From Lentinula raphanica (taxonomy: Eukaryota; Basidiomycota; Agaricomycetes; Agaricales; Omphalotaceae), in assembly GCA_027919835.1 (NCBI GenBank), contig JANVFP010000014.1, positions 62,001-126,000 on the forward strand: a stretch of 64,000 bases of DNA. The letters are read 5' to 3'. Shown here one piece after another: positions 11,687 through 45,900 of the stretch. The first letter of the stretch is position 1. Each line of letters starts with the position of its first letter. The notes under the pieces are model-generated. The model was given only the letters and a program-made list of their open reading frames with translations, made no database searches and was not told where the DNA came from. Both the position numbers and the translations under genes were made by a program.

Positions 11687-16754
<5,068 letters not shown>

Positions 16755-23798: not shown

Positions 23799-24553
23799 CT
23801 AAGCGATCTCTTCACTTTCCTGATTCTGGTTGTTGATTTGTGAAGCATAGTTATCGAAGAGATGCGGATGGTATGACTGAAAGACACACTGCTCAGCCAC
23901 TGAGATAGTATATGGTCTATTTCTCACCTTCGGAGTAGGTAACACATGAGTTACAAGCATATCCTTGATGGTAAGTTCTGTTCGCGCAAAGTGCGATACA
24001 ACCTGTGCTAAGGGTAACAATCGGCAGTGACCAAGTTGCCTGGAACATAACCAGCCACAACTCAATCTTCTATAGAGGTCGTGCTCGAATGGAATTGGGT
24101 TCATCTGGTGAACCTCTAGATAAGTTGCAGTTTCTGATATCCCGGTGGCGGGATGCAGATACGAATGAGAAATGATTCCTTTGATGATTCCCGCACCGTA
24201 GTTTCCTGCCTGGAGATCTTTGAATATCACAGAACTCTCACGAGTATTGCAGGAGAAAACAACGCCATTGCTAACAACACCAGCCAGTTTCTGTGCAGTA
24301 CGGACTAATCGACCCTTCCATGCACCAGGGGGTAAACTGTGTTTCACACACAACAGTTCGAGAATCTGGTCCAATGTGGAATTTTCCATGACATACTCCT
24401 GAGATTTGAAGGTACGATCAGAGGAGGACCAGGTAGAAAGATCGGTTCCGTCAAACATCCCTCGATGAGATTCACGTTTCATATCAAGTAAGGCACCTAG
24501 TGCCTCACTGATATCCTCCCGTAAATCTGTACTATGCTCTAGAATGATTTCAA
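23799..24553 (-). pseudogene. Plavaka/Tnp2-like transposase, C-terminal part (split by KDZ insertion)
   Basis: Continuous minus-strand frame ending at 23799 (QNQESEEIA), containing YLEVHQMNPIPFEHDLYRRL and LCVKHSLPPGAWKGRLV. It is the C-terminal piece of the transposase whose N-terminal and central parts lie at 39090-42923. At the upstream end the frame is cut at the KDZ terminus (24554). Deleting the KDZ element and one copy of the target duplication makes the frame continuous, reading GALEIILEHSTDLREDISEA across the junction. The pair is therefore one gene disrupted by a later insertion. The exact Plavaka element ends and inverted repeats were not found. Confidence 0.85.
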
Positions 24554-24847
24554 CACTTCAGGCACCCTTAAATCCTACCGACTTAGGGGGGATTACCCGC
24601 CAAATACCCGTACCTACTGGGGGGGATTACCGGTCAATTACCCAATGGGTATTACCCAAACTGGGTAATACCCTGCCTCTGGTGCCAGGGGTCCCTGTCT
24701 GGTATTACCCTCCTGGGTAATACCACCCCTCCTACAGCTTGCTCACCACCCCTCCTATAGCTTGCTCACTACCCCTCCTATAGCTTGCTCACTACCCCTC
24801 CTATAGCTTGCTCACCACCCCTCCTATAGCTTGCACACCAATCTTAC
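24554..24847 (+). repeat. left terminal inverted repeat of the KDZ element
   Basis: 294 bp, matching the reverse complement of 38866-39089 (224 bp) almost exactly. The 70-bp difference is fully explained by three extra copies of a 23-bp subrepeat (CCACCCCTCCTATAGCTTGCTCA; five copies here, two on the right) plus one extra G in a G run near 24620. Inside lie two GGGTAWTACCC palindromes spaced 16 bp apart and a second pair of GGTAWTACC cores 15 bp apart. Confidence 0.93.
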
Positions 24848-25386
24848 CACTATTATACTACTACTACTTAGTATCCTGACATCCATACTATATATTTAGA
24901 GTGCCTGTGCTCACATATGTTATGATATTGAGATAGACATATAATACATGTTGGTGGCACATGATACACTATATGTACATTACAAAACACAGATTTAAAT
25001 GTGCTGGACCTACTGAGGTGATTTTGCATTAGGTATATATTCATTACTTACATTATTCATATAATGTTTACTATCCTACCTCATAGATAATGAATTGTGG
25101 TGGTATGGTCATATCCTAACTATCTTTCTCATTCAACCAATCCAGGCCAAATCAAGCAAGGATCATGGTGATATTCTTACTCATATTACCAACATGGAAT
25201 AACACTGTACCCAATGACTTTCACTTGATATTTGGTCATTCTACCCTCAGTACCCTCAGTTGGTCTTACCCTTACCCGGGAATTCTTATGCTCGGTGTTA
25301 CCTTTACTTGGTACATGGTTATTTGCTAAGGGTATTACCATTACTGAGTTTATTGAGCCAAACTGATATGTTCACTGGCTCATATT

Positions 25387-25574
25387 ATTAGCATTACCCT
25401 CACTGGATTAGGTATTACCCCTTACAAGGCGTTACCCTCATTGGCCTCACTAGGTATTACCCATTCTGAGCATTACTCATATTAGCATTACCCTCACTGG
25501 ATTAGGTATTACCCCTTACAAGGCGTTACCCTCATTGGCCTCACTAGGTATTACCCATTCTGAGCATTACTCAT
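25387..25574. repeat. tandem direct repeat, two copies of 94 bp
   Basis: Two adjacent copies beginning ATTAGCATTACCCTCACTGG, at 25387 and 25481. They lie in the AT-rich, TTACCC-rich zone between the left TIR and the 16-bp array, and contain degenerate copies of the same palindrome. Probably a segmental duplication within the subterminal region. Confidence 0.85.
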
Positions 25575-25603
25575 TACCCTCCTTGGATATTACCTTGATT
25601 GGG

Positions 25604-25842
25604 TATTTACCCTAGATGGGTATTACCCTAGATGGGTATTACCCTAGGTGGGTATTACCCTAGATGGGTATTACCCTAGGTGGGTATTACCCTAGATGGG
25701 TATTACCCTAGGTGGGTATTACCCTAGGTGGGTATTACCCTAGGTGGGTATTACCCTAGGTGGGTATTACCCTAGGTGGGTATTACCCTAGGTGGGTATT
25801 ACCCTAGATGGGTATTACCCTAGGTGGGTATTACCTTCATTT
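25604..25842. repeat. array A: 16-bp tandem repeats with palindromic GGGTATTACCC core
   Basis: About 15 tandem units of GGGTATTACCC plus a 5-nt spacer TAGAT or TAGGT. The core is palindromic around a central A/T. The array ends about 45 bp from the stop codon of the KDZ transposase, so it lies in the 3' flank of that gene and about 1.05 kb from the left end of the element. Confidence 0.93.
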
Positions 25843-25885
25843 CATTCAACAAGAACCAAATACAAGCAAAAGGAAACTCATATTT

Positions 25886-28800
25886 CTAAGCTAAGTTGTC
25901 ATCTATGTCAATATATGTATCAGCCACTGTCAAAGCATCTATATGCTCTATTAAACCTATATCCAGATCATCTTCATCTAGCTCTGAGGAGTCATCATCA
26001 TCATCATCATCACAGACCTGGTCAACAAGCTCTGCTTGAATCTCATGCTCAACTTCCCTTAACTCTTCTGAAGTTGGTCCTACAAAGGATGGAATGAATT
26101 CTGATGGAAGTTCATTTAGTGCTTGAGTCCACAAAATAGATAGTCGTGTGAGATTGATGCGCCGATCCCAAAGTTGGTATTGAAGATCAATATCTGAAGA
26201 TTCTCTGTCAGAAATTGTAACAACTAGAAATATCAAGAGAATACCTTGTGTATTACTTATAGCAGTTACAACTACCCTCCATTCTTCTGCAAACCAATCT
26301 TCCATTACACGGATCTCATGCTTTAATCGAAGCAATTCTTCATCACAACGATCACGGAGTAGAATACCTTGGATTCCTACCCTGACCTGCTCATCTGACA
26401 ACCAAAGTGGAGGACCAGCTGAGTTGTCCTCGCCTTCGAGTCCGCAATCATCCCAGATTGCATCATCAATATCAAGTGAAAAAAGTTCCTTCATAGGAAT
26501 CGGGCGAGGCGCTATAGCATTTGCAGGAGCATTCTTCTTAGCAATACGTTCAGACATTCGCTCACAGAGCTTGTTGTAATTTCGAGCAAGGGACTGAATG
26601 CCTCCATCTCGCTGCTTGACAGTATCTTCAGTGTGCCTATGGAGTTTCCGTTGCGAAGCTAAGAGGTGTCATTGAAATCTGGAACAGAAAGGAACAATAT
26701 TTGCAAGTCTAAATGACTCACCATTCATCTGCCGTCGAAAGCTACGCTCAAGTCGGTCACGTTCAAATTTGCGAGCTTGTAGGCGCTGTCGCAAACGAAT
26801 TTTAAGTGCGCGGGCATTCATGCGATCAGTAATGAAAGGACTTGATGCTAAGTGTCGATATTGCCTTTCCCCATCAACCCCTAAATTGTTCTCCTTTGCT
26901 GACAAGGTTGACTGTGCTTTTTTAAACTTCTCTTTGAGCAAGGGAAGCTCTAATTCAGCCTCGGCAATTTCATAGGGCTCTGATGACGGGCTGGCAATGA
27001 TATCTTCAAGATCTTTGATACTTTGTCGTAGAGTGTCTCGAGATTTCCGCAGACGCAGTGCTTCCTCAATAGCTTGTTTACCAGCGGTACGGGATTGACC
27101 TGTGAAGACATATATGAGTACACAAATTTACTGAAATATTTATGGTAAAGAATGTTACAGGGTAATACCCAGACCAGGTATTACCCAGACCAGGTATTAC
27201 CCAGACCAGGTATTACCCAGACCAGGTATTACCCAGACCAGGTATTACCCAGACCAGGTAATACCCAGACCAGGTATTACCCAGACCAGGTAATACCCAG
27301 ACTAGGTAATACCCAGACCAGGTATTACCCAGACCAGGTAATACCCAGACCAGGTATTACCCAGACCAGGTAATACCCAGACCAGGTATTACCCAGACCA
27401 GGTAATACCCAGACCAGGTATTACCCCCTCATATTCAGGCAGACACTTACGAGGTGATGGCTTGACTGTATGGGACTTCTGCTCTTCCCACTGCTCATGT
27501 AGAAAGTCGGAGTCATGAGTAGACCACCGTACATTCTGTTCAGCCTCTTCACGCTTTGTTTGAACAAGCTTCCATTTCCGAGCAATCCAATGTCCGAACC
27601 CTATCAGACTTTCATTATCAGCATGCTGAATCTGGGAGTCCAGTGTATATAGTCGTATGTAGTGCTGGAGAAATACAGTCAGTACAAATTTGACCCAGAG
27701 TATGAACACTTACACCACACACCCGCAGGTAAGCAATTAGTTTACTTATTGAATGCCAGAAACGCTCGCATCCTTCACCGTCTGATAGTCCAAACCCAGT
27801 GCATTTACGAGGATGGTAAACACATTGGCAACCCCAGCCGTGACCGAATGCATGGAAGACAGAGATTGCAAACCGCATGCGAGGAAGATAATTCTTCATA
27901 AAACCCCATTTCACACAGCTACGTTCTAGCTGACAGGCAATGTCATAAAGAAGGCCGACGGTGGAAGTGGAGGGAATGTGATTGAACAACTGGTCCAAAA
28001 GGGCAAGGGCATAATGCTGCCTTTCTCCGGGTGTGGTCATATTGACAAGCCAGAGAACACGGTCATGTCGACATAAGAGACCCATGAGTGCCGTTGAGTC
28101 AAAGAACTGGGTACTGGCCTTCTCACGATAGCCATCTGCTGCGGTGAAGCTGTCATTGCAGGCATCCAGAACAGACTTTGGAACCTGCATGCCTTCTTCA
28201 ACCTCATCGTCAGCGGAACTCCTAGCTGGGTTTGTTGTGTGACGGGAAGGCCTTTGTTCTTCCACCACATTTTTCCAATGTTCGACGTGCTCCTCAGCCA
28301 AGAAAACACTTCGCGGGTGAACATGTTTCGGGTCACGAGTCTGCTTGTTATGTTTCTGATTGAAACAGGCATCAAGGCAAACAATGAAGCTGGTACTAAC
28401 GAGTAACATCAGCGAATGCCAAACCAATTTAACCCATCTGAAGTGAGTCACTTACCCATGAGCAAAATCAGACTTCCCGCCGAAACACAAAGGACATCGA
28501 CTGCGAAGATATTGAGACGGTCGTGAGCCAGCTATAGTGCATTCTTCCTCCTCATGCCGAGCACGCTTTGAAGGCCTGTCTCCACTGGATTCTGCTTCAG
28601 TCTCTGCAGTAGGTGTCGATGGAGGAGATGAAGGGGCAACAGCAGTCAACTGCTGGCGTTCTATTTCGAGGTATGAGTCAACAGACTGAGTCGTTGCCTG
28701 CTGTAGAGCATTGTACCACCGGAGCGCCATTGTGAAGCGACGACGAAGAGGATCCTTAACAAAGGTAAGCCATATTCAGGTGTATGATAAAGTGTCGTAC

Positions 28801-29585
28801 TTTTCCTTTCATCTGATAGCCTTGGCACTTCAGAAAATCCTCGATTGTGTTGCTTACTCCAGTGTGATTGGGCGAGATGCGAAGGAAAAGGCGAGTTACA
28901 AAGTCAAGCACTCGAACATCTACAGCTAGCGTCGGTTCCTTTGGTGCACTACCGAAAAGTCCACGTTCAATGAGCTGAACCGGAGCGGAACGACACTCGC
29001 ATATATTCAGAGTCAGCTTCTGCAGTCCTGTAATTGCAAATGTTAAAAGTTGGTTTCAAGATGTGTACATGGAATTTACTCACTGTTGAAGCGTAAGACA
29101 ACTATATCCAATGTCCTCTCTTTCCATCCTCGACACACACAGGCTGACTGCTGAAGAGAAATGTCTTGACTGAGGTTTCCGGATTCCCGCAGATACTTCA
29201 TATATGGAGCTATAAGTGCGGGGAGGACCTCAGTCTGCCACCGGAGCGTCTGCGCTAGAGACTTTTGTCGATGCGAGGACAATGGAAGAGAAGCCTCCAC
29301 TGTGGTGACACTTTCTACAGGAGCTTCAAGCGGTCGTTGAGCAACTGAATCGAGGTCAACGTTAGGTCGTTCCAAGAATCCGAATTGACCGACAGGTGCA
29401 GGTAGATTCCGCTGAGAGAGAACCACACCATGCGCACCATACAGAATAGGACGTGCATTCCTTTTAGAGGGAGACTTGGTCTGTGGATTGTGAGGGAAGG
29501 CATGGTAGGCAGTACGTCTTGGAGACGAAGGACTCGAAGGTACATCCTGAGTGAGCTCGCGGTTCGGTATGTTGAGCCGTGACAT
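25886..29585 (-). CDS. KDZ-family transposase with CxC zinc-chelating N-terminus
   Basis: ATG at 29585 (MSRLNIPNRELTQD), stop at 25886-25888, several introns, roughly 1,000 aa. The N-terminal part has Cys pairs (CVCRGW, NICEC) of the CxC type found in fungal KDZ proteins, then LLDFV-type helices (VRVLDFVTRLFLRISPN), FTMALRWYNALQQ and a second Cys pair, CPLCFGG. The RNase H-like catalytic region follows: IVCLDACFNQKHN, GLLYDIACQLERSC, RFAISVFHAFGHGWGCQ and GFGLSDGEGCERFWHSISKL; the Asp residues and the Glu of GEGxER are the expected acidic catalytic residues. Downstream are coiled-coil exons (LKEKFKKAQSTLSAKENNL) and an Asp-rich tail. All exons are open, so the enzyme may be active. The intron at about 27105-27446 is filled by a 16-bp palindrome array. 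Confidence 0.92.
27163..27426. repeat. array B: 16-bp tandem repeats inside a transposase intron
   Basis: About 16-17 units of GGTATTACC or GGTAATACC plus the spacer CAGACCA, again exactly 16 bp. The array lies wholly in one intron of the KDZ transposase, between the donor near 27446 (CTC|GTAAGT) and the acceptor near 27105 (CACAG|GTC), and stretches that intron to about 340 nt versus about 50-60 nt elsewhere. An open frame through it is only the repeat. Confidence 0.93.
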
Positions 29586-29777
29586 TGAGACTCAGAAAGT
29601 ATCTGGTCTAGTTTAACGTCATTTCGGACGCTCATTTGAAATGTTCTCATACTCACAACTCCAATTCTAAAACCAAGGCTACGGGTTACAACACGCATTA
29701 GCTACATTATATGTCTGTCCAACATTACAGATACAAGAATTTGACACGAATAGTACAAGAAGTAAGTGATACAGCGA

Positions 29778-32700
29778 TTATTGGCTTTGTGGTACACTTT
29801 TATGATCATACTCACGGCGTCTTTTTTCTATAGTAGCGTTGTTCCCTGCTCGTCTATCTTCCTCGGTCTCCCACACTGGTACTAGCCATGCACGATCTAC
29901 CGTTACAGGTGCTCGATCCAAGAGAACTTCCTGGTCATAACGTTCTGCTCGTCCCTTGCGTCTACTCGTATGGACGAACTGAATTATCCACTTCGAAGCA
30001 CCCGGGTCTTCTTTATTGTAGACTTGTCCAACACGCCGGCCCATTTGACCACTCAATTCCGGCGGATGGATTAGCACGAACAGCAAGTTGCATTTACCGG
30101 GTTTGGGAGGTACGAGTTTGGATTTGTCGTCTTCGAGTCGAGGCACAAGCAAGAAATCGTTGAGCAGCTGCTCGTGTGCAGCCTTAGAACCTCCTTGACC
30201 AACATCTCGGTAATATATCTGACGATTACGAAGACGGACGCGGTGCTCCTTCATAGAACCTGACCCATACTGCCCAATCTTCAGCGACATCTCACGATCA
30301 CCCAGTCCGCTTTCCAGGTTTGGATTCAGGATCCAGGGCCCGTCGTATTGGAGAGAAGGCGAGAACAAACGTTCTTCTTGAGGCATCGGTGTCGTTTGTC
30401 TTGAAGGAACAGGTGTTCCACCAGCGCGAGATGGCCATTGCTCTTCTTCGACCACAAGTTGAAGCCGACTGATACGCTCGTCTTCAGCAATTTGATGGGC
30501 ACGTTCCATTTCCCTAAAGAGCACAAGGGGCTGTTTACGAGCAGGTAAACGAAAAGCCACAATTTCCTGTGGATCGTAAGTCGGGAGATAGCCATCGCGG
30601 AATGTATAATAAGGAATCCAGGGCTGAGTCGTGACAGGGGTCTCCGACGGTACTTCACTCCCTGGACTCCGGTCGTGAAGGAATTTATACGTTCTGAGCT
30701 CGTTACATATCAGATACGTCGAGTATTCGAATGAAACACACTCACTCGAGTCTACGTATCAGGTCATAGTCCACCCATTCTGCAGGCACTGCTGCATTAA
30801 TAGTAGCGTATTGGATGTAGACTGCAAGCCCACTCTTCATCGACCTGTCCTCCTTAATATCCTTGACCCGACCATGATAGCCTTTACTGTGATGAGCCCC
30901 GGTCACCAAAATTTCAACGTTGATCCATGGGTGAAGATGACTGGTCTTCGGGCCTGTGTTGGTATTTATGGGACTGCTAGTGGCCTCACCAAATGAGAGC
31001 GATGAACGGTGCATCTCGGTGAGCGGGGCAGAGGACGATGGCGGCGTAGAATTCCAAGCAGATGAAGAACCCGAATTCCACCGTCGCAGGGAGTTCACAT
31101 GAATATCGATATCCTGCAATCAAAATATGTAGGTGAGATACATCACAACGAAGGTCGAATACTCACTGCATCAAATCGACCAAGGATCACTCGAGCTACA
31201 CCAGTCTTGCTATCTAATTCTGTTACGGACCCCACAAGCCCATACGCAGGCAAGCGTTCCCAAGACTTAGCTTGTCGAATGACTTTCCCGTGAGCGATGA
31301 TCTCTACTGTATCTCCCACTTGAAATAGTTTGCGTATGTAGATTTTGGGAACACGGAAGGTTTCTGATACGACTTGACCATCGTGTACGCGGGAGGTGAT
31401 AAGCTCACAGTGAAGAGCTTCAACAGATTGTATGATGGCTAGCGATTCCGGTGAAAGTCCATAATCGAAGAGTATTCGAGAATCGGGTTGGCCAATATGA
31501 GTATTGATGAGATGGACAGATTCGCCGGTGAAGAACACCCAATCGGAGGAAGGTGGCATACGCAAACGTACAAAGGGATACGAGATAACTGGGTGGCCGC
31601 TTTGTCGGAAAAGGGAATCTAGATTTGCTGGCAGCACGTCGGAAAGTGTTAATGAGGCCCAAGGAATCTTCACAGCCGCCAGAGAGCCAATGAAAACTTG
31701 CTTGAGGAACGTACATCGGTGAGAGAGAATTCCATGAGTGCAAGTCAGCGGTGAGGTACACTCTTCATGCAGACACCACCTGTAGTAAGGTTCGACGTCG
31801 TGATTGTGGACTAATTGATCAGCTAAGCTTAGGGAGAAAAGAGTGGGGGGAGGCCTTGACTGCCGCTTGTTCTTCTCTCCAACTTTGCGCGGAATGAGGA
31901 GCCGAGGGACCAATAATACCCAACAGAAAAGACGGTTGGGATCGGTTTCATCATCGGGATACTCAATCTTATAGACGAGGCCAACATCACCACTATATAG
32001 CCGGTTCTTTGCACTAACGCGCACCCAGCTTCCAGCTTCAACTATGTCTGGTCGAGCCTGATAGCGCAGCAGCAGGTGATTGTGATTTAGGGCTAAAGGA
32101 GTGTCGTGCCAAGGAATAAGGGTGTGGATAGGCAAAGACAAATGCGCAGAGTCCCAAAGGGGAGGGATCTCAGACAAGAACGCAGTAATTGAAGTGCCGT
32201 CGGGTTGAATAACAACACGCTCTTGTTTGTGAGAGGATGGATGTGAGATTCGCGGCCTATTGGGGTAGACAAAGCCTGGAACTCGTCGCAGATATGCTGC
32301 GAGATACGTGTTGAACCTGTTCATGTTATGAACATGCAAGTAAACGCAACCCGGGAACTGGGAGCGAAACGCATTCCACAACACGTCAGGGCTCACGCGT
32401 TCACAAGCTATGTCATCGCGAATGCGGGTGACAATGTCATTCTCTGAACCGTGCTGGCACTTGACCGCGTAGATGTCGAGAAGACTATATTCTGAAGCCT
32501 TGTGCATAAGCTCCTCCATGAGCCCTAGCAGTAACGGGTCTACCGGGACTTTGTAATCATCGACACCGGGCAAGTCTAAGATATTATCGTAGTCTAGAGC
32601 GGCGATCGAATCCATCATGGACTGATCAGCGGGAGGAAGGTGGTCTGACGAGGAGGGATCGGTATTAGAGGAAGCTGCAGCGGGAGGAAGGTGGTCTGAC

Positions 32701-32990
32701 GAGGAGGGATCGGTATTAGAGGAAGCTGAGTGTGAGACGGATGGTTCCGAGGAAGAGGATGACAGATCGTTTCCAGAGGGAGGAGAGACAGAAGAATGCA
32801 GGGAAGAGAGAGATGATTCGTAGCGTGAAACGATTGCGTCTAAACGCTCCTGGTAAGTGGAATGACCAAGATGTGGTTGCAGTGGCGTATCATTGGTCGT
32901 TTCATCTTCTCTGAAGACACCGGGTTCATCGTCGCTCTCAAATTCTTCATCGTCGTTCTCCTCCGCCTCTAGAAGTATGAATTGATTCAC
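29778..32990 (-). CDS. Spt5-like NGN/KOW protein carried by the KDZ element
   Basis: Three exons: from 32990 down to about 31167, about 31102-30748, and about 30682-29778 (VPQSQ stop). Splices rejoin as RFDA|DIDIHVNSLRRW and RRLE|TYKFLHDR, giving about 1,030 aa. The N-terminus is acidic (EENDDEEFESDDEPG), like Spt5. Residues about 172-245 match an NGN domain (LDIYAVKCQHGSENDIVTRI, FPGCVYLHVHNMNRF). KOW-type motifs follow: SWVRVSAKNRLYSGDVGLVY (about 320-340), LFQVGDTVEIIAHGKVI and PWINVEILVTGAHHSKGYHG. Spt5 with Spt4 is the conserved processivity factor of RNA polymerase II. The role here is unknown: perhaps a cargo paralogue that helps transcription of the element or modifies host elongation. 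The true start is uncertain; an ATG at 33121 with a donor at GCC|GTGTAA would add 11 residues in phase. Confidence 0.82.
32626..32730 (-). repeat. in-frame tandem duplication in the Spt5-like gene
   Basis: Two copies of about 51 bp encode SSNTDPSSSDHLPPA twice in a row within the disordered Ser/Pro/Asp linker between the acidic N-terminus and the NGN domain. The copies are almost identical at DNA level, so the duplication is recent. Confidence 0.85.
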
Positions 32991-33204
32991 GTTACGCTCC
33001 TGCGAAACCGATCGTCAGTCGATAAGTACTAGATACTCGCACAAGGTTCAGTTAACTCTTCTTTCGCTTGTTTTCTGTCATCTTACACGGCCTTACGCGT
33101 CCTTAGGACGTTCATCTTCATTCGATAGCTCTCTTATTCACTATTCTAACTACTCTACTCTGTACTGAACCAGACTTACCAGGGCTATAACTCGAAGATA
33201 CGAT

Positions 33205-33410
33205 GGTGGGAGTTCGAGAAAAAGAGAAAAATTTGATCACGTGGTAACGTGGTACCATATGACCTGCCGAAACTTCGGATTTCCGAGTTGAACGGATTGA
33301 AACTCTTTTGGCTCAAATCCGTTCAACTCGGAAATCCGAAGTTTCGGCAGGTCATATGGTACCACGTTACCACGTGACCAAATTTTTCTCTTTTTCTCGA
33401 ACTCCCACTA
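33205..33410. repeat. long near-perfect inverted repeat (hairpin) between divergent cargo genes
   Basis: Left arm 33205-33298 (GGTGGGAGTTCGAG...) and right arm about 33315-33410 (...CTCGAACTCCCACTA) are reverse complements over about 94 bp, with very few mismatches and a loop of about 16 nt. Arms contain the palindromes CACGTG and CATATG. It sits between the Spt5-like gene (minus) and the acidic/proline-rich gene (plus), in their shared promoter region. It could be a MITE nested in the KDZ element or a structural/regulatory element for both genes. Confidence 0.92.
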
Positions 33411-33936
33411 TGTCCTTCTGTCGCTGAGGCATCCTCATCATCTACAACACCTGGACCTTCATCAACGTTCACAATCCACAGTATACTCATCGCTCTCACC
33501 TCTACATCGGTGCTCCCGACCTCATCCGTACGTTTCGTTGCTGCATATGTTGTGAGGTGAAGAAGACTGATATATGGCTACATCCCAGTACTTATATCGA
33601 ACGACCGTGCGGCCAGTTCGTCTTCGCGTCACTCTCTGGAGGTAGGCAGTAACTTCATTGTACGTCTAACGGTCTATGGTGCGTATCGTCGTTGTATATT
33701 TTGTATGCCGTGAGGTTCAACGACAATGGTATCTATAGTCATATCTGCGTAGTAGGCTAAATTGAGAAAAACACTGGTAGTTCTGTCTAATCGTACACAT
33801 TTCACGGATACTGAGAAGATATAAGAGAACATAAGCGATACAATTGTGGGAATACACACTTGGTAGGTTTTCAAAATTCGAGGGAAAAAAGGCATACGCC
33901 GGTAATCTGAGTTCTAAAACACGTCGTCTAACCACC

Positions 33937-36900
33937 ATGCGCAGAACTCGCGCACAAATGAAACGAACGACCCGCTCTACGACCCGCTCTAATCCTGACG
34001 CCGTCCAGGTAACTCTTTCGTCTGTAGAAGCTGCGGCTCAGAAGCGGAAAACTCGAACTAAGGTACACTTTCTCTCAACATTACGACCTCTTTTTCTCAA
34101 TTTCTAGTAGGCTGGCAACAAACCACGCACCGGAACTGATAGCGAACAGGAAGCTCCCCCCAACAAGAAGGTCCGACAGGACCAGGATCAGGTAAGTTCC
34201 CTGACAACACTTCCAATTCACTGGTTTCTTGTCTGAATTTTCCAACTCTAGGATGCGTCGTCCATGGAAGATTCAGCTAGTCGGGTACCTGGGCTTTCGA
34301 ACGATAACGATTCTATCCCCACCAACGACCGCGTTGGTCCGCCACGGAAGAGTAAGAAGAAAGTCAAGAAAGCTCCTCCGACAAAAAAGGTCTGTTGTTA
34401 TTATCAGCCATGTCCATTTCATGCACTGATTGTACACAGGATACGGCCCCCGTTGTGACGACTACTACTGCAGACACCCCTTCAATCGCTCCTACGAATA
34501 CCTCACCACCATCAGCTACACCGGTAGTTGGTGCTACAGGCTCTCCCTCTCCGCCGCCTCCCTCTCCGCCACCTCCCTCTCCGCCGCCTCCCTCTCCGCC
34601 GCCTCCTGCTGGTGCGCTTGAAGAAGAAGACGAGAAATTACCTGCAGAACCCGTCTCGTCTCCAGACGACTGGGAAGAAGATGATGGTCTTACGTTGGCG
34701 ATAATTGAGCAGGATTATAACGTCTTGGCTGAGCTTCGGGAAAAGTATGTCGTGAAAGCCCGCGAGACTCATGGGACAACAGTTCGAACGATTTTGGATC
34801 GCTTCAGGTTCCATTTGATTGCCTTGGCAGTTGTTCCTGCAGATGATGCATACAACAATAGCCTTCCCTTAGACACAGATACTGCGACCACCCATCAGAT
34901 CGTTCAGTATGTCCAACAAATCGATCCTCGAGGCTTCTGGGGCGTTTATTCGTACCACATGTACCTGCTAAGGGAGCTGGCAATGAATATGATACCCGAA
35001 ACCTCCTATTGGTACCCCGCTCGTTTCAGTGACCCTCCCAAAGAATTGTCCAAAATTCGACTTCCAGCCACTGTCCCAGCCACTGTCCCAGCCACTGTCC
35101 CATCCACTGTCCCATCCACTGTCCCATCCACTGTCCAGCCTGTTGGAGATGTCCTCATGGAGGATATGTCAGAGGCTTCTGAAGAGCCAAAGCAACACCT
35201 GTCTTCCCCTGATCGTGCACCACCTTCTCCAGCACGCGAACGTTCTCCGGAACATGCACCACCTTCTCCGGCACGCGAACGTTCTGTACGCGAACGTTCT
35301 CCGGCACGCGAACGTTCTCCTGAACGCCCACCTTCCCCAGAGCAGGCTGTTCAACTCGTCAGCTATGCCAGCTCTCCTGAACCACCACGTTCGGAAGACG
35401 ACGAAGATGTTCTCGAGAGGGCGAAGCGTAACGCCAAGGGCAAAGTAAAAGAAGTGGAGGCCGACAAGGAACAGCACAAATCTCTCCCCAATACCCGCAG
35501 GTCCAACCGTTTGAGCAGATCGCGGGCTTTGACCTTTTCCGGATTGAGGGAAGAGGAAGACGGGGGTAGGAACTTGGCCAAGTCAAAGGCAAAAGGAGAG
35601 GACAACGAGGATGAGTCTGACAAGTACAACAGTGATGATGAGGAGGAGGAGGAGGAAGAGGAAGAGGAAGAGGAAGAGGAGGAGGAGGAGGAGGAGGAAG
35701 AGGAAGAGGAAGATTATGAGGATGAAGAACCCGAAATTCCTCAACGTCGCTCTCGTGGTTCAGGCAAATCAAAATCCTCCACCCTTTCCAAACAGGTTTT
35801 GCTTCTTCAACGGACTAAAGGTCGTCGTCAAACTTTGGCTCAGTCCAAACAGGCGCCTGCGAAACCGAGCAAGTCCAAGAAATCCAAAGCCAAACATACA
35901 GCACCTCTCCGATTTGAACCACCCTCCCGAGAAAATAGCCCACCGGTCGAAGGGGGTAAGGGTTCTCTTCCTCGAGCAGCAAAAGATCGATTGGATGCCA
36001 TCATTGCGGAAAAGAATGCCGAAATTGAAAAGATCGCCAAGGAGTTTGACAAGCCGGTAGAAATGTGTTTTAAGTATGTTAATGTCGAGGCGGGGCCTAC
36101 GCGCGCAATGACAACGTGGAATATTTGGCAGAAATGGTACAAGTACCATGGAGACCAGAAGCGACCCGCCGAAAGTACGTATCTGCTGTCTAATGTAATC
36201 TGGCTGCTCGCTCACCAAGTTGAACCTTCAGTGCCAATTGGTGAATATACAAAAATCGTCAGTAAGGCGATGGACGACTTTTTGCATGAACGATTGTCCG
36301 ACGAAGACTTCGAGAACCCTGATGCTCGGGAGGAAGCACTTCAACAGCAAATTGACTGGTATTGGACTCATTATGATAATTTTGTCCAGCAGTCGGTGGC
36401 GAAAGGAAAGACTGAGGGTGTGGTGCGTAAGGTCATACGTCCAATCATCAACATGGTATGTTTTTATTGACAGAATGCAATTTTCGTGTACTAACTGTCT
36501 GTCGCTTAAGGCGAACCGCGTATACCAAGAGACCGGATTTCATATTGGAGGATATATTGTTCACCCCGATGCTCAACCGTCCATCTGGGTATCAACTCAA
36601 GCCTTACAGGATGTCAAAGCAAGGAATGGAACTCAAATGCTGACGCAGGCAAAAGATATTGCGGCTCAGATCGCGTAAGTGGGGTAGAATGTCAGACTTT
36701 GGTTTTACTAACTGTACATTATAGTGTCACAAACATGGTTTCGCGCCAGGTTGATGCTGCCCTAGCTGCTTTGTATGGGCACTGCATAGTGACCTCAACT
36801 ATTCGGGCACGCGATAGACATATCCTACCAATTATAATTGCATATGACATCAGTAAGTGGTCTCTTAAACAGTTCTGATCATGGTTTGGGACTCATGCAA

Positions 36901-37567
36901 ATGATTAGAGCGCATTTTTGGAGATGAAGCGGATCGTCTCAAGATTCAGATGACGAACTTCGTCGAACAGGCTTGGAGAGCAAAAATCCGCATCATCAAT
37001 TGGCCTGTTGGATTACCGTACTTCAGGTGCGGTATCTCGACAACAAATGGGTATGAGCGCGGATACAAGAATGTCAACGATATCAAGAATGATGACCTTA
37101 AACGCATCGTTGATCCACGAAGAGAGCAAATTGAGCGAGACATGGCGAAGGCACAGGGAAAGGAGGTTGTGGCCCACGGGAGAACATATTTTGAGGTTGT
37201 TCAATGGAGTGAAGGTAAGTTATTGCTCAAGATCATGAAACTTGTTTCTAATGCATACATAGATGAACGGAAACTTCCTCTCAAGGATCTAGCTAAGGTT
37301 GGGACCATATTGGATGAGGATGGTCACATTGTTGCTGCTGTCTCTCACTCGCAGAGCTATCTTCGTGAGAGGAAGAGCCCACTGTCAGATACAGATGATG
37401 AACAGGAGAATGACAATCAACGTAAATCGAAAACACCATCGGACCTTTTTGCATCTCCATCACCTAGCCCATCTGCTCCTCCAGCATCTCTGTCACCTGG
37501 CCCATCTGCTCCTCGAGCAAAGAAGCATCCCCCTCCTCCTGTCAACCGAAAAACCAGGCCAACATAA
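33937..37567 (+). CDS. KDZ-element cargo protein, Lys/Pro/Glu-rich, unknown function
   Basis: Starts at ATG 33937 (MRRTRAQMKRTTRSTTRSNP) with four short basic N-terminal exons, then a large exon (about 34440-36460) and four smaller exons ending at 37567; about 1,080 aa. Visible parts: nuclear-localisation-like Arg/Lys clusters, a Pro/Ser repeat (SPPPPSPPPP), a Thr-Val-Pro repeat (ATVPATVPSTVPSTV), a Ser-Pro-Ala-Arg-Glu-Arg repeat, a run of more than 20 Glu, and basic patches (SKSKKSKAKHTA). The conserved-looking core is C-terminal: AMTTWNIWQKWYKYHGDQKR, FHIGGYIVHPDAQPSIWVST, FVEQAWRAKIRIINWPVG. I recognise no family; the Trp-rich segment could be a DNA-binding region. All exons are open. It is divergent from the Spt5-like gene. 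Confidence 0.72.
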
Positions 37568-37660
37568 GTATAGCTAGGTATCATTTTGTTTTGTGTTAGT
37601 GTAGAGTGCAGGTTAATGTTAGTTGGTAACTATACCAAGTGAATGTGCAGTGAGTACCTG

Positions 37661-38262
37661 GTGAGGGTATTACCAGTAAGGGTAATACCCAGTGAGGTAA
37701 GGTAAGGGTATTACCCTCACTGGGTAATACCCAGTAAGGGTAATACCCAGTAAGGGTAATACCCAGTGAGGTAAGGTAAGGGTAATACCCAGTGAGGGTA
37801 ATACCCAGTGAGGGTAATACCCAGTGAGGGTAATACCCAGTGAGGGTAATACCCAGTGAGGGTAATACCCAGTGAGGGTAATACCCAGTGAGGGTAATAC
37901 CCAGTGAGGGTAATACCCAGTGAGGGTAATACCCAGTGAGGGTAATACCCAGTAAGGGTAATACCCAGTGAGGGTAATACCCAGTAAGGGTAATACCCAG
38001 TGAGGGTAATACCCAGTGAGGTAAGGTAAGGGTAATACCCAGTGAGGGTAATACCCAGTGAGGGTAATACCCAGTAAGGGTAATACCCAGTGAGGGTAAT
38101 ACCCAGTAAGAGTAATTACCCACTGAGGGTAATACCCATTGAGGGTAATACCCAGTGAGCAGTAAGGGTAATACCCATTAAGTAAGGGTAATACCCATTA
38201 AGGGTAATACCCAGTGAGCAGTAAGGGTAATAGTATTACCCACTGAAGGTAATACTCACTGA
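37661..38262. repeat. array C: 16-bp tandem repeats with GGGTAATACCC core
   Basis: More than 30 units of GGGTAATACCC plus the spacer AGTGA or AGTAA, mostly at 16-bp pitch, interrupted by a few GTAAGGTAAGG variants and decaying toward 38262. It begins about 90 bp after the stop codon of the plus-strand cargo gene and lies about 0.8-1.4 kb from the right end, the mirror position of array A. Confidence 0.93.
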
Positions 38263-38865
38263 GGGTAATATCTTTACCCTTAATACCAACATGTGGTAAT
38301 ACCATTATAGGGTACTAAATGAGTGTAATACCCAAATAAAACACCAGCCTGAAGGTATTAACCAAATCAAGGCAATACCATGGAACGGTGATACAGGTAA
38401 GGGTGATACCAACTGAGGATGATACCAGGTGAGAATATTAGTAAGTAAAGGTAAAATTAGCCTGAGGATATTCCTAAATGAAGGTAATACTAGACAAGGG
38501 TGATACTACCATACCCATACTAGGTGAGGGTATTATCACTATGTCAAGTAGGGGGTAACATTAATCAATAAAGATCATTGGTACTACAATGCTGGTAATA
38601 TAAGTTACTACTAGCTTACTAGCATAATTTATGCAACATCAGAAAGGATGTGTGTTGTAATATACCTAACCATGTATAGTATACAGTATGAATCCCCAAT
38701 CAATATTAGACCGGTGAGTAGTATAAGTTACCAGCTCAAGTTTCCTGCATATACATGTTAGTCTTGTGTTACATCTCTATCAGAGTCTACTGCACAGACA
38801 GTCTAAGTATATAGTACGAATAATTTATTGGTGCCAGGACACTGTGTTGTAATAGTATAATAGCT

Positions 38866-39089
38866 GTAAGATTGGTGTGCAAGCTATAGGAGGGGTGGTG
38901 AGCAAGCTGTAGGAGGGGTGGTATTACCCAGGAGGGTAATACCAGACAGGGACCCCTGGCACCAGAGGCAGGGTATTACCCAGTTTGGGTAATACCCATT
39001 GGGTAATTGACCGGTAATCCCCCCAGTAGGTACGGGTATTTGGCGGGTAATCCCCCCTAAGTCGGTAGGATTTAAGGGTGCCTGAAGTG
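38866..39089 (-). repeat. right terminal inverted repeat of the KDZ element
   Basis: 224 bp, inverse of 24554-24847; contains two instead of five copies of the 23-bp subrepeat. The outermost bases on the minus strand read CACTTCAGGCACCC. Followed directly by the target duplication ATTTCAA. Confidence 0.93.
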
Positions 39090-42000
39090 ATTTCAAGAGC
39101 ACCTTGACGGCTATAATCACTTTGCATAGTAGCCTCTACCTCGCCTAGGATAATTAAAAAGTCAGCGACGCAACACTACTACACACAAAATGACTGATTG
39201 ACCTGAGTGATTGTTGGAATTAATTTCCTGCAAGATATGATTCGTGCGCTCGAAGATTGGTGTATTGCGGGCTTGCACCGGTCCCATACTCTCCAGGTCC
39301 TCAACGATGTGAATAGCATAATGGTGGTTGGGCTTCAGAGTAACATCGGGAAACAGAACCAGTACGGTGCGAAGATATTTGATGATAAGGGAACGATACT
39401 CATTTCGAGAAGCTTCCGAGGTTTCACGCAAGTTCAGAAGCCTAACTGCATGAACCAAGTCCAGGAAATTCTGGAGCATCTGGAAATGTCGAGCTTGGGG
39501 ATTGTTTTCATACTTATAGCCCCAGAGGCGTATCAAGGTGACGACCAAAGACACAGAACAGACCACCTTCCATTCATCTGCACTGAGCTTTCCATTGGCT
39601 TTTGTGCCCCAGTTTTCTGGAGGGGAGTCAATCCAGCTTGGCAGTATTGTGATCTTCATGTCTTTCCAGACCTCATCCAGAATGTCCTTGGCAATGACAT
39701 GCCTGGATGTAGCTCCTCTTCTTGGAGTAAGATCACTTTCCCGGTTTTCTCGACGCTACAAATTGATCAGATGATGTTTGTTAGTGAAGTAGATCTAAAT
39801 TTACCCAGAGGATTAGATTCTTTGCCATTTCAGCCTTCTTTGGTATCGGTGCAGATTGACTTGAGGTAAATGGAGGTATTTGGTACACCTGACACAGCCG
39901 GGCAAGATGAGCTTTATTATATTCACTGCCCATCAGAGTGGACATGGTTGGCTCTTTCTCTTCGAAACGTTCCTTCAATTTCAGGAAGTGCAGAGAATCT
40001 GTGTCAGGAATTGAAAGCTTGTCTTCATCCTCATCCTCAACTTGCTCGGTATGCTATGAAGATCAGGTTAACACATTCTATGGACAGGATCATGAATGAC
40101 ATACATAAATCTTGAGTCTGATAATAAGATCCTCCTTGCGATCTTCCTTGTCATTATAAAAAATCCCCAGACCACTACACAGTGCCTTGAGCATCTCTTT
40201 CTTCATTCGTGAAAGCCCAGGCATCTTCTGTGTCCCGTTTCGTAGCTGCTCGATCAGAGTCTGATATTGGGGATCAGTCTGCCAGCTACCAGGATCAGCC
40301 CCGGGAGAGGTGGAAGAGGTTGCAGGTGGAAGCTGATTCCTTGCTTCTTCAACACCAAATGTAACTGAAGAACGGGTAGTAGCTGTATCCACTGAGATAG
40401 CAGAGTCCTATGCACATTGCATTGTTTAATCACACACTATCTGGATTATGTAGAGAAGCACCTACTGTATCAGAATCAAGCGTCTCACTCAGACTCTCTG
40501 ATGTATCACCAACATCAGAGCTATAGGACAAGGGAGGGATAAGGGGAATAGCATCAAGATCTACGGTTTCTCGCTGGAATCAGCAATAAGTTGTGTGAAA
40601 TATCAAAATATTTGAATACTCGCACCCATTTGATGATGGCATTTACCAGTGTTTCCTTCTTTCCAGCTGAAGGAAGATCCAGACTGTAGCAGATATACCA
40701 CAAGACAGCAGGAGCTTGATCATTCAAAGTCTTCTTCAGAGAAGACTTATTTTCTCTGATGCTATTATACAATGCGCGCAAGAGAGAATTGGATGGTTTC
40801 TTGCGTTTCTTGTCGGAAGATGGCTGAGCATAGCCTTCGCCACTTTCAAGAGCCTCCGCGTCCATTTTCCAAATTTTGCGAACATGGGTAGCAAAAAGGC
40901 CCAGATAGCAGAGGTGCATGCTGTCAATGACTGTAAAGAGGATAGGGTTCCAATAAGGAAGTCTCAGCAGTTCTGACCACCGCATTCCATGGTTTTCATA
41001 GATTTGGTGACGAGCAGCCTCAGAAGGAGCATCTCGCCAGAGATTTGCTTGGAGTTTGTGTGTCTCGATATCGCGTATTGGCCATGTACTGGAATCAAGA
41101 TTGTGGATGTCTTGGATAGGTAGGATGCATCGTACACAAAAATACTTATGACTGTGAGAGGCAAAGCCCGAGATTGAGTGTGCGCCTTCAGTATCACATA
41201 CCGCTGGGGCCAAAGCTGCATACACCGTCCTACCCCTTGCGTACTTGGAGGTGCGAGTGAAGAAAACCCCATTCCAGAATAGTAGAAGCTGATCGACAAC
41301 TTTTTGTAGTGTGTGATTTATCTGAGCTTCGTTTGGGTGGCCGCGCATAACCGTAACAAGAAACATATACTCCTTACGGTAACGAAGGTGTTCGGGAAGG
41401 ACAAGGAGCACCATGTATAAAGCTGTAGAACTGGCAGAACCACCTGATCTTTTCATGTGGAAAGGATTGAAGGAATCGTAGCCAAGGCTCATCAAAAGCC
41501 GCAAATCGGGTGATCCAGAGATGTCCGATTGTTGTTTCATGAATGGCTTGCCATCGGGACCCACAAATTCATTGAAAATAGGGGAATCCCAGAAGTCCTG
41601 GATGGGACCCGAGGTATCTACGCGATCCAAACATTGTTCGAGGGAATCCTCGATCCCAGGGATGGCTAGAAGCTTTCCGATCCATTCTTTGAGGTTCTGA
41701 AAAACCTGCTTTCGAACGGGAGAATGAAGGGTGCGGGAACCAATGTTATGTGTTTTCCACAACATGTTACCACACTCTAGAGAGTTGGGATGAGATTTCG
41801 AGGTGCAGTAGGGAAGGGCGCCTTCATTTTCCACCAATGGCGATTCTGTAAATGGATATAGGGCGTGGCAGCTGGAGCATGAGATGAAGGTATCCCAAGG
41901 GGGATCAAGACCATAATGATCCACCACAGTGTGAATGTCCTTAGGTATCTGATCCGCAATATCCAGGCCAAGTGCTGTATGAATCTCTGGTTTGACTCTT

Positions 42001-42923
42001 CCTGTCAAACTCCGTATCATAGCCTGCTGAAGGGCTAGGATGACTTTCATCTGGCGGACTGAATTCCGGAACTTGATGTAGATGATTAGGGCAGTGATGA
42101 GGGCGATTCTGACACTAGGGTCCTGGGGTGCCCAGAGTCTGAAATATCGAGCTATTTGAAGAAATGTCGGTACACATTTGCTGTCGAAGAGTAAATTCCA
42201 CCTACAGTTATCAAATATGTATTGATTCAGATTGGGGAAGGCTTGATTCTCCCAGCTTCGTCTTTTAAGCCGCTGTAAACTTTCCAAAGCCTCGTATAGG
42301 AATTCCTCCAAGGAATCGTCAACATCATTTTCAGAGTCACGACGTCGAGGGCTTATTTGGAGCTCTCTCAGCAAAGTACAGAACCTTGCTTCTGTCTCAA
42401 GGAACCGACGATTATTTGGATGTGTCACCGTTAATGCGAAAGACCCAGAGTTGACTTGGAGGATGGACTCGGGATCCGGAAATATGAATGATTCATCGGG
42501 CGAATGTACTTGGACGAAATTCAAATCTAGATTGGCTTCTAGGAGATATCTTAGACGAACTTCGATCTCTTGTCGGATCTCCTCCGCCAAGGTTGAAGAT
42601 GTGTGTTGGGTGACAAAGCCTCCAGCTGAAGTGGTTCGCCAGGTTTGGGGAGACCCTTGATCAGTAGTGCCAGCAGTACTGGAAGACCTGGCGAGTTCAG
42701 AGCTCAATGGATTCATCAAGGCTGAAGAAGAGCTGGGAGAAGCTGAAGGACTATCCGAAGAGGTTTCGGTGCTCGGTAGAACAGTTCTGAACCGATCGTG
42801 TATCTGTTGTTTTTTGGCATGGGAACGCAGAACATCATATGGCTGGTCAAGACCCTGTGGATGTGTTGAACAGCAGTCGTTGCATTTGCAACGTCGAAGG
42901 CGGAAATCGCGTCGAGGACCCAT
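39090..42923 (-). pseudogene. Plavaka/Tnp2-like transposase, N-terminal and central part
   Basis: ATG at 42923 (MGPRRDFRLRRCKCNDCC) opens a long exon to about 40620 and several shorter exons. Cys-rich N-terminus (KCKCNDCCSTHP). Tnp2-type core: LMSLGYDSFNPFHMKRSGGS, LYMVLLVLPEHLRYRKEYMF, SISGFASHSHKYFCVRCILP, WSELLRLPYWNPILFTVIDS and MHLCYLGLFATHVRKIW. SAP-like DNA-binding motifs occur (MLKALCSGLGIFYNDKEDRK). The later exon 39162-39659 has LPSWIDSPPENWGTKANGKL and PNHHYAIHIV...FERTNHILQ. The frame is then cut at 39090 by the KDZ element; the C-terminal rest is at 23799-24553. The coding sequence on this side shows no other obvious break, so inactivation is due to the insertion. Confidence 0.88.
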
Positions 42924-45900
42924 TGGAATCAAAAGGAAATAGCAAAATAGCCCAAACAAATTGTTACGTACGGACCGTTGACCCCTATGTTCTGGTGGAC
43001 ATATGGTATAGGGTGAGCGGTAGAGATAAAGCAGGGAACAGAAATTCTATGATGGATAGTGTGAATCTATTGAGCGAGAGCAATTCAAGACATAAACATT
43101 ATGTTGAGGAGATAGGATTCCAGTAGAATACAGCAGCACTTGTATGATATGTGATGATATGATATTTTATTTCTCAATTCATAGAGTCACTATGCGTGGT
43201 TGTCTCAAGATAGACAACACAACCGAGACGCGGATCAATAGAGAAGGAGGCAGGTTAGGTTGAAGTATTTCGTATCTTGCCTTCATCGTGGCCATTGACT
43301 TGAGACTGTACTGTTCGGCGGACTGGTGTTGGTGGAGCTACTGGAAGCTCAGGCATCTGATGACGATATGAGCAATTCATGAAACTATAAAAGCAGTGAT
43401 ATATCAGCACAAACCTCCTCCTCATCCGACCCTGTTAATCTCCACTACCATCCCAAGAAACCATATCGACTCGCTGGTGCACTTGCCCTGTGTTCCTTCT
43501 TTTCTGCTTTCCTCGAACCTGTCTGGCACAGATCAGGATAACATCCATACTCTAAGCCTCATGTACATCGTATGGGTCACCGGGGCAGATTTTGTGTGTA
43601 AGGGCAAGACCGGACAGAGCCAAAGCGCAGGGGTATTGCTTCCCGTGGATGACAATGGCGATGCAATAAGGCCTGCGGGCAAAGGATAAAGGATAGGGTT
43701 GTGCTGGGCGAAGGATGAATCAGCGGAAACAGTGGAATGTGAATGCCATCAACGATAGACTTTGGGGTGGGGGATTTGACGGCGAGAAAGCATCCTGGGC
43801 AAATTCATTCTTCCGCAATGCTGACGTAAGTAGATGCTCTGAATGACTCATTGGTCATTGCTGTTGCGACGAAGGAAGCATGGTTGTTTGATGGAGAGAA
43901 GCAGGAGGCGAAAACTTGCAAAGGACATGGGAGAAGTAAGCTGAGCTCTTCGTGGTTCAGGAGCAGAGACATGTCCAGCAGACGCACTTTCGACACGAGG
44001 ATGAATCTCTGCAGACATGGACGGGGATGGTTTTGTATGTGGTGGAGGTGTGGGTGTCCGAAAAAAGGACTCTGATTGGTTAAGGGATAATTGTCGGAAT
44101 GAGCTGAGGTGATACACGACAGAGTTCGCGCTTTGACTTTAGGCGAAGGCGTGGGTGTCGACATATCCATAAGATTGAGCGATGAGTCGAGGATCTCAAC
44201 CGACGCTGGAGGAGGGATGTCCGTCGTTACTGAGCTGGAGAAAGAAGTGTAGGCCCTGGAAAACAGCAGTGTAGGAGGGGGTGAATACTCGCACTTCTTG
44301 GTATGATCCGAGTCTGGTTGAGCTGGACGTCCGACTGACGGCAAGGACCTGTGATAGCGAATAATGGTTGAGCGCGGCAAAGGCTCCACACAGCTAAGTG
44401 ATGTTTGTTCCAAAGAACAAGTGTTGATGAAGCACGGGGCAACCTGAAGGTGTTGAATGTTGGTATCAGGATGTCGTGACAAAGCAACGGAGCGAATGTG
44501 ATGCTTGGAGAACCTGGCGGTACCTAGAGAGATTTCACGTCAGCCCAGACAGCCAATATCACCAACTAACAATCGCACCTGTGACGACTTAGCCCAATAG
44601 CCTGAACAAGTAGAACCATTAAGACACAAACGGCACTCTATACCCTTCTCTGGATCATTCTCTTGGAAGCGCAAGCAACAGCTGTGACCTCATCATAGCT
44701 GCGCTATCACAATGATAATGAACCCAGCATCGTGCCACCTCAGCCCAAGAGTAGACAGTATCCAGTCGAGCGGACCATTGGCCGCAAGGAGTGTTGAATC
44801 GAATGAATCGAATTTGCCGCAACAGTGTTTTGCCCGAGAAGAGCTGCTTCCAATATTTTAGTATCACAATGTTGTACTGGGTTTGAAATATAGATCGCAC
44901 CTGTTCCACTATTGGAAGCTTACTGAGAAGAGAGAAAACCAGGAGGTGGCTGCCACAAGGCGAGGTGCAACTTCTTGCGAGCATTGGCGTTGAATGTGAA
45001 CGTTGAACGTTGACACTTCAGCAAGATTATGTGAGAAATGCACACAATTGCAATTACTTAAATTATCACATGTACATCATCAACCTGAACCATCATCCGA
45101 GTCGTTTGGAACTCAACGATTTTTCAATCATCATCCACACTGATCATGAATCTACCAACAATTTCATAACTCCAACTCACTATAGCGAGGCCTAATACCT
45201 TGTTGAGCAGGGTGAGACGCCTCAAGCACTCGAAACTCATTGGATAAGTTGATGTCAAAAATCTGATTATTCTGGCTTTAGCTTGTCGCTCATCCAGAGG
45301 TTAATAGGATCCTCAGAGTGTCAACTCCACATACTCAATGTTCATGACTCCTCAGTAGCACTTTTTTGAACACTCAGTACGTGATGGTCAATTTGCATGG
45401 TTCTCTGACTGTGGTTCCTGTGACATAGGATTCACTGGAGCAATTACGACGACATATAAGCATTCCAGAACAACGCTCGAAGTCCTGGACACACACGAAA
45501 AAGGTAAAGTTTGGGTCGTAGTGTGCCCCTCAGACCTCGGGATACGGAGGGGCACTGAAGGTTGAGTTAGGGTCATAGTCCACACGTCTGACTGCAGCCA
45601 GTAGCTTCCTCGTCAATGTCTGCAACAGGGAAAATCGAGTCCTGGTCCAAATTTGCACCTCAGACTTCTGACCCTTGCCCAACGTTCACAGGGGAGATCG
45701 AGCTCGGGTCAGTTTTCTGCACCTGTACTCCCTCGCGATTCACCAGAACTCTGGATGACTCTAGCAAGAATATCGTTTCTGCGGTCCTTGGGATCATGCG
45801 AGTAGTCCAGGACTGGATTCTGAGCTTGTTATCTGCAGCGCTTTATTCGTCAAGTGACGATGCAGGTATAGACGAGCTGGATCAGTGGATGGATTCAAGC

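Follow-up and report, generated by a model that had tools for sequence, protein, structure and literature searches.

Within a 64,000-nucleotide stretch of the Lentinula raphanica genome (contig JANVFP010000014.1 of assembly GCA_027919835.1, hereafter the window; C14:62001-126000 of the 49-Mb, 75-contig assembly, whose loci we name by contig label as C1, C2 and so on), we found a complete 14.5-kb KDZ DNA transposon, spanning 24554-39089, that carries a gene whose product is, on profile comparison and predicted structure, a divergent relative of the transcription elongation factor Spt5, homologous from the NGN domain through KOW3. This Spt5-like gene is under purifying selection and is one of about 74 such loci that accompany the one ordinary Spt5 of the genome, an expansion for much of which transposon spread is a supported explanation.

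A KDZ element that carries an Spt5-like gene

The inverted repeats bounding the element are 99% identical, differing by one mismatch and one gap, have CA..TG termini and are flanked by two identical copies of a 7-bp target-site duplication (Table 1). At three empty paralogous sites the joined 600-nt flanks align without a break (flank columns 1-599, 1-599 and 1-586 of 600, at 77, 76 and 72% identity), and a tnp2-like transposase gene (PF02992, E 1.3e-5, below the Pfam cut-off) lies in two parts because the element inserted into it. A PF18758 (KDZ) match at 27621-28451 (E 1.3e-56) supplies the transposase domain which, with defined ends and a target-site duplication, characterizes a KDZ transposon; we class the element as KDZ only. 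An earlier note on this DNA, made from its letters alone, had placed an Spt5-like gene within a KDZ element, and the intact ends, duplication, empty sites and transposase all uphold that placement.

Searching the genome with the window inverted repeat returned 41 matches. Both element ends were found at three further Spt5-bearing elements (C7, C25 and C16), the repeats of which are 87-88% identical to those of the window, and all three have a perfect 7-bp duplication of their own (AGGGTGG, AAGCACA and GTTCTTT, respectively), so the Spt5-like gene moves with the element. In the earlier note the cargo was taken to be a captured host elongation factor; a relative of such a factor is supported as cargo, and its movement with the element is supported by the duplications, in the window and in three of three further copies. 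Seven other repeat pairs had no match to family A, the Spt5-like family of the window, and showed a 7-bp duplication at C1, C42, C1b and C22, a 4-bp one at C44 and none at C7b and C27, with repeat pairs on C17, C19 and C31 left out of this check. At C27:38329-41990, the bases flanking a short repeat pair are mutually reverse-complementary and form no direct duplication. Two Spt5-bearing elements may be nested at C2:401832-419053, where a family-A copy with 96-97% identity to that of the window shares the stretch with an Spt5-like gene of family D (C2:409542).

The protein model is near-identical to P0001, a 1,040-aa GenBank protein from another L. raphanica strain. Comparison of the window family profile with host Spt5 by hhalign gave a collinear match of 313 columns (E 5.2e-13; E 2.9e-19 in a second comparison) covering NGN, the KOW1 linker and KOW2-3, with 19-25% identity between element copies and host. 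In an AlphaFold2 model of P0001, NGN, KOW1-linker and KOW2-KOW3 match the Spt5 structure, a predicted fold that depends in part on the homology claim, given that the host Spt5 exon was one of the 24 rows of the input alignment (A2). Foldseek searches with this model ranked chains W, Z or j of RNA polymerase II (Pol II) complexes at positions 1-28. We take these chains to be Spt5/DSIF. Of the Spt5 domains, NGN, KOW1 with its linker insertion and KOW2-KOW3 are therefore present in the predicted fold, and the identity proposed in the earlier note, together with the structural check that it had recommended, is borne out by family profile and model alike. Of the later domains of Spt5 (KOW4, KOW5 and the C-terminal KOWs), the model showed one possible counterpart, a barrel at residues 680-736 whose alignment fell either at human residue 646 or at 754, and the C-terminal 304 residues, encoded by the C-terminal exon, gave a low-confidence model when folded alone (predicted local distance difference test score, pLDDT, 43).

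Element copies share with host Spt5 the order of acidic N-terminus, NGN, KOW1-linker, KOW2 and KOW3, but differ from it in having no C-terminal repeat (CTR) arrays and in a C-x4-C-x5-C-x-H motif, which occurs in rows of families A, B and E and not in those of families C and D or in the host Spt5 exon. The protein had been described as ending without a CTR; this is accurate for the tandem repeats, P0001 being without TPAW, TPNPY or SRTP motifs, but a remnant, TPVPSRQTTP, survives in the window family, and families B and E retain PAWD or SRTP motifs.

Selection was measured on open reading frames only, as the ratio of non-synonymous to synonymous divergence (dN/dS), with L053 omitted from alignment A4 on account of a stop. 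Between the window and the other subfamily, dN/dS was 0.15-0.19 in exon 2 (dS 0.81-0.89; C25, C7, C25b, C14b, C16 and C20) and, for the five copies compared in exon 4, 0.07-0.14 at dS values reaching 1.8, with ratios of 0.04-0.10 for the KDZ transposase and 0.38-0.44 for gene 3, the accessory gene of the element. Ratios also stayed below 1 in family B (0.18-0.47), in family C (0.12-0.16) and, for its sole unsaturated pair, in family D (0.18). Among close copies the ratio was higher or undefined (0.86 for the window against C2; 0.37-1.08 for exon 2 within the other subfamily), as expected where changes are few. Between C25 and C25b (C25:453598-457334 and C25:122343-125507), dS was 0.08 in exon 2, 0.57 in exon 4 and 0.89 in KDZ, and such unequal divergence across parts of one pair suggests exchange by recombination between element lineages.

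Spt5-like families across the genome and in related species

The ordinary Spt5 of the genome (C42:205944-206981; Pfam NGN, E 7.5e-23) lies on a contig with no KDZ or integrase-core (rva_4) transposase hit. Sorting the search matches by eye gave about 74 Spt5-like loci, which were assigned to families A (n = 8), B (n = 28), C (n = 7), D (n = 12), D2 (n = 10) and E (n = 9). Search counts are lower bounds, and neighbouring exon matches were merged; a 61-residue match at C25:408386 was excluded, and some gene fragments were possibly counted twice: the pair of family-C loci close to KDZ, C20:192297 and C20:203715, are probably pieces of one broken gene. Scored against the listed KDZ hits, from which a few weak matches were omitted, 28 of the 46 non-B loci lay within 10 kb of KDZ (A 6, C 2, D 9, D2 6, E 5; genome background 4.25%) and none of the 28 family-B loci did. 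An rva_4 transposase was found within 10 kb of 14 family-B loci and one of the 46 others (background 2.0%), and within 15 kb of 21 family-B loci. Plavaka, a third abundant transposase and our control, was within 10 kb of only 2 of the 74 loci (background 3.1%), so the KDZ and rva_4 links are specific and do not merely reflect repeat-rich regions; near-identical copies are not independent, and binomial enrichment values are indicative only. Both Plavaka-adjacent loci (C20:318583 and C11:1379156) belong to family E, and Plavaka is perhaps a third transposon type with Spt5 cargo.

Downstream of three family-B genes (L071 on C8, L072 on C30 and L068 on C14), and in the same orientation, lies a PF24764 integrase-core transposase or its start. 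Inverted-repeat alignment for the ends of the family-B element on C30 yielded only 12- and 13-bp pairs; with these ends undefined, family B is reported as an adjacency and not as a bounded element. The proposal that KDZ cargo explains the spread of Spt5-like genes therefore stands for the majority of non-B loci in this genome, but KDZ alone is not the explanation, given that B loci lie near rva_4 and two E loci beside Plavaka.

In phylogenetic trees, families A, B, D and E each formed one group, with A, B and E together and C and D together. Family B was placed beside E in both trees holding the two (support 96/94 and 92/91), a grouping for which the program warns that long branches may join falsely. 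Alignment A1 comprised 11 of 13 proteins (P0003 and P0013 omitted), while rows for A2, A3 and the trees were hand-picked, family E being represented by 5 of 22 proteins and L075. The phylogeny with host Spt5, as previously recommended, is unrooted, with a single host sequence on a long branch, and does not discriminate between one capture and two. Since five of the nine E loci and no B loci lie near KDZ, Spt5-like genes are likely to have passed between transposon types.

Other genomes were examined through predicted proteins only, by a protein search in which scoring is limited to the candidates with the most words in common. Relatives among the matches listed came from L. guzmanii, L. detonsa, L. 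aff. detonsa and Collybiopsis confluens. In the L. guzmanii predicted protein P0013, an Spt5-like part is joined to a relative of gene 3 (24% identity, 165 columns, E 1e-17), so this neighbourhood is probably older than the L. raphanica genome. The L. aff. detonsa protein P0007 was considered as a run-on into gene 3 and rejected, as comparison with gene 3 found nothing.

Further features of the element and window

Table 1. Features of the KDZ element and its insertion site (window coordinates)
Feature	Position	Strand	Remarks
Target-site duplication, left copy	24547..24553	.	ATTTCAA, 7 bp
Left terminal inverted repeat	24554..24769	+	216 bp; start CACTTCAGGC
KDZ transposase gene, several exons	25886..29585	-	Open reading frames; gene limits and exon joins inferred
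KDZ transposase domain	27714..28391 (C14:89714-90391)	-	E 2.1e-55
Putative N-terminal exon of KDZ transposase	29076..29585	-	
Spt5-like gene	29778..33121	-	4 exons; 1,049 aa
KOW2-KOW3 (predicted)	31081..31535	-	P0001 residues 491-624, across intron
KOW1-linker region (predicted)	31608..32042	-	P0001 residues 322-466
C-x4-C-x5-C-x-H motif	31734..31775	-	Between KOW1 and KOW2
NGN domain (predicted)	32061..32483	-	P0001 residues 175-315, mapped by offset
Near-perfect palindrome	33203..33411	.	96-nt arms, 98%; lies between gene 3 and the Spt5-like gene, which are divergent
Gene 3, predicted accessory open reading frames	34356..37567	+	Open reading frames
Right terminal inverted repeat	38875..39089	-	End GCCTGAAGTG
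Target-site duplication, right copy	39090..39096	.	ATTTCAA, 7 bp
Flanking tnp2-like transposase gene	39097..43046 and 23799..24553	-	Split by the insertion; outside the element

The palindrome is nearly whole in C25, C25b and C2, partial in C7 and C16, and absent from the examined piece of the Spt5-less C1 copy; possible roles are as a bidirectional promoter or as a hairpin that is itself mobile. Homologues of gene 3 are present in the C7 and C1 copies, and comparison of gene 3 with the PDB gave three weak matches only, which we read as acidic low-complexity sequence. A palindromic decamer, GGTA[A/T]TACCC, occurs 70 times in the element and nowhere else in the window, its copies spanning 24648-38988 and lying in both inverted repeats and in arrays at approximately 25411-25821, 27161-27426 and 37681-38212; judged from sequence, it is a candidate transposase-binding site. 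No TET/JBP gene was detected among the five element open reading frames in a general Pfam scan, which was not a search aimed at TET/JBP. Near the transposon cluster, plus-strand open reading frames at 12393-16754 presumably represent an ordinary host gene, the pentafunctional AROM of the shikimate pathway.

Possible roles and relation to known systems

The element-borne Spt5-like protein has, in our judgement, an even chance of promoting transcription of the element's own genes. An ancestral element would have captured a copy of host Spt5, and captured copies would have diverged and moved between transposon types. Predicted to bind transcribing Pol II through its NGN and KOW domains, the protein would act as a self-serving paralogue of a general factor, like RfaH-type NusG paralogues in bacteria, and would help polymerase through element genes that the host would otherwise silence. 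A factor acting on transcription in the element's interest would fit the selection on the polymerase-facing NGN-KOW3 region, the nearly lost CTR hub and the link to transposases, and of such roles we favour this one. More tentatively, a captured and remodelled Spt5, handed between transposon types and carried by at least two unrelated fungal superfamilies, might switch polymerase to an element-serving, silencing-resistant mode, as a eukaryotic counterpart of NusG paralogues borne on plasmids or in operons, such as ActX and RfaH.

Several observations weigh against this account. No such transposase lies within 10 kb of 18 of the 46 non-B loci and 14 of the 28 B loci, and only one element end was found at C2, C20, C25b and C14b, half of the eight family-A loci. 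The KDZ copy at C1:167679-176354, which shares an identical KDZ core exon with C25 (dN = dS = 0), is without the Spt5 segment yet has a clean 7-bp duplication; either the gene is not strictly needed in cis, its product perhaps being supplied in trans, or C1 lost it once inserted. The hidden Markov model check suggested in the earlier note failed, as Pfam-A profiles find neither NGN nor KOW in the window protein (the sole match being a chance one to GET2), and NCBIfam gave zero matches for P0001 and for a family-E open reading frame. Families A, B and E also have a replacement at an acidic NGN residue that host Spt5 shares with families C and D.

Ranked next after elongation aid, and ahead of insertion targeting, is a decoy against host silencing, in which the protein would displace host Spt5 or titrate Spt5-linked silencing partners on element chromatin. 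Host Spt5 paralogues are described as serving silencing or genome scanning, namely SPT5L/KTF1 in Arabidopsis (PMC3111484) and Spt5m in Paramecium (PMC8934623); a core that is retained while the CTR, which serves as a recruitment hub (PMC7819879), has almost disappeared is what would be expected of a non-productive competitor, and the C/H motif would be an added surface. A decoy, however, needs neither all of the NGN-KOW3 domains nor a selected C-terminal exon, and we consider it unlikely. Also against it, the C-terminal GW/WG repeats that mark SPT5L/KTF1 are lacking, with no GW/WG motif in P0001 and 0-1 in the other six of the seven proteins counted.

Insertion steering, whereby the protein, travelling with Pol II, would tether the machinery of transposition to chromatin under transcription, would fit both the 28 of 46 non-B loci close to KDZ and the position of the window copy within another transposase gene, but the Spt5-less C1 copy also has its own duplication and we hold this role to be quite improbable. 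That recent copy, still flanked by its 7-bp duplication without the gene, fits a history in which the gene rides along passively, or is a duplicate of use to the host that the element simply moves; neutral cargo would nevertheless decay, and purifying selection in several families (open frames only compared), along with the tie to specific transposase types, makes such a history very unlikely. Least credible of all is that the protein is not Spt5 but a generic SH3/KOW-barrel protein, which we rejected given its NGN domain, its collinear hhalign match to host Spt5 via NGN, the KOW1 linker and KOW2-3, and a predicted KOW1-linker fold and domain order that are those of Spt5.

The closest known system to the Spt5-bearing element is provided by fungal TET/JBP-bearing (TET+) transposons, including Kyakuja, which carry captured regulatory cargo in several unrelated superfamilies and for which the main text proposes an anti-silencing role (Kojima 2025, PMC12730594). 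Both have a KDZ element, CA..TG ends, 7-bp duplications and a captured regulatory gene, whereas the cargo is a dioxygenase in TET+ transposons and an Spt5-like elongation factor here. The window element shows the 7-bp duplications and 5'-CA..TG-3' termini given there for Kyakuja, but not the absence of inverted repeats: in Laccaria bicolor the TET+ Kyakuja families have none according to that paper, and the window element has 216-bp ones. According to the main text of PMC12810828, KDZ1-KDZ3 of Cryptococcus neoformans are 9-11 kb long and recently mobile; they resemble the window element in having a KDZ domain and inverted repeats that are likewise long (139-241 bp), with duplications of 4-8 bp compared to 7 bp in the window. 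The terms Spt5, KOW and elongation are absent from the main texts of both papers, as is NGN from the former. Among the literature matches listed, whose coverage does not extend to the founding KDZ paper (Iyer et al. 2014), none described Spt5 carried by a KDZ element or mushroom transposon; 'transpos' and 'Basidiomyc' occur zero times in the available text of PMC13289920, on elongation-factor evolution, and the passages of PMC12062965 and PMC8290104 contain no Spt5 or KOW.

RfaH, LoaP, UpxY and the plasmid-encoded ActX, for which no function is given, are presented in PMC7819879 as second NusG/Spt5-family proteins for selected, often horizontally acquired genes. Such bacterial paralogues have one NGN and one KOW, whereas the window protein is a eukaryotic Spt5 with multiple KOWs, encoded by a cut-and-paste transposon, and the likeness in function is by analogy only. 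SPT5L/KTF1 of plants and Spt5m of Paramecium, as described in parts of PMC3111484 and PMC8934623, are also divergent extra Spt5 copies tied to mobile DNA, but they are host-encoded and act in silencing or DNA elimination, while the window protein is transposon-encoded. Its gene is not a single-copy host gene at an ordinary locus, lying as it does in a transposon and among about 74 loci.

If the role proposed here in aiding elongation is correct, the Pol II elongation step would be a target of mobile elements, with a transposon that encodes, mobilizes and selectively maintains a relative of Spt5. Such cargo offers a reason why the L. raphanica genome has Spt5-like genes by the dozen and, together with the TET/JBP transposons, suggests a general strategy whereby fungal transposons gather host tools against silencing.
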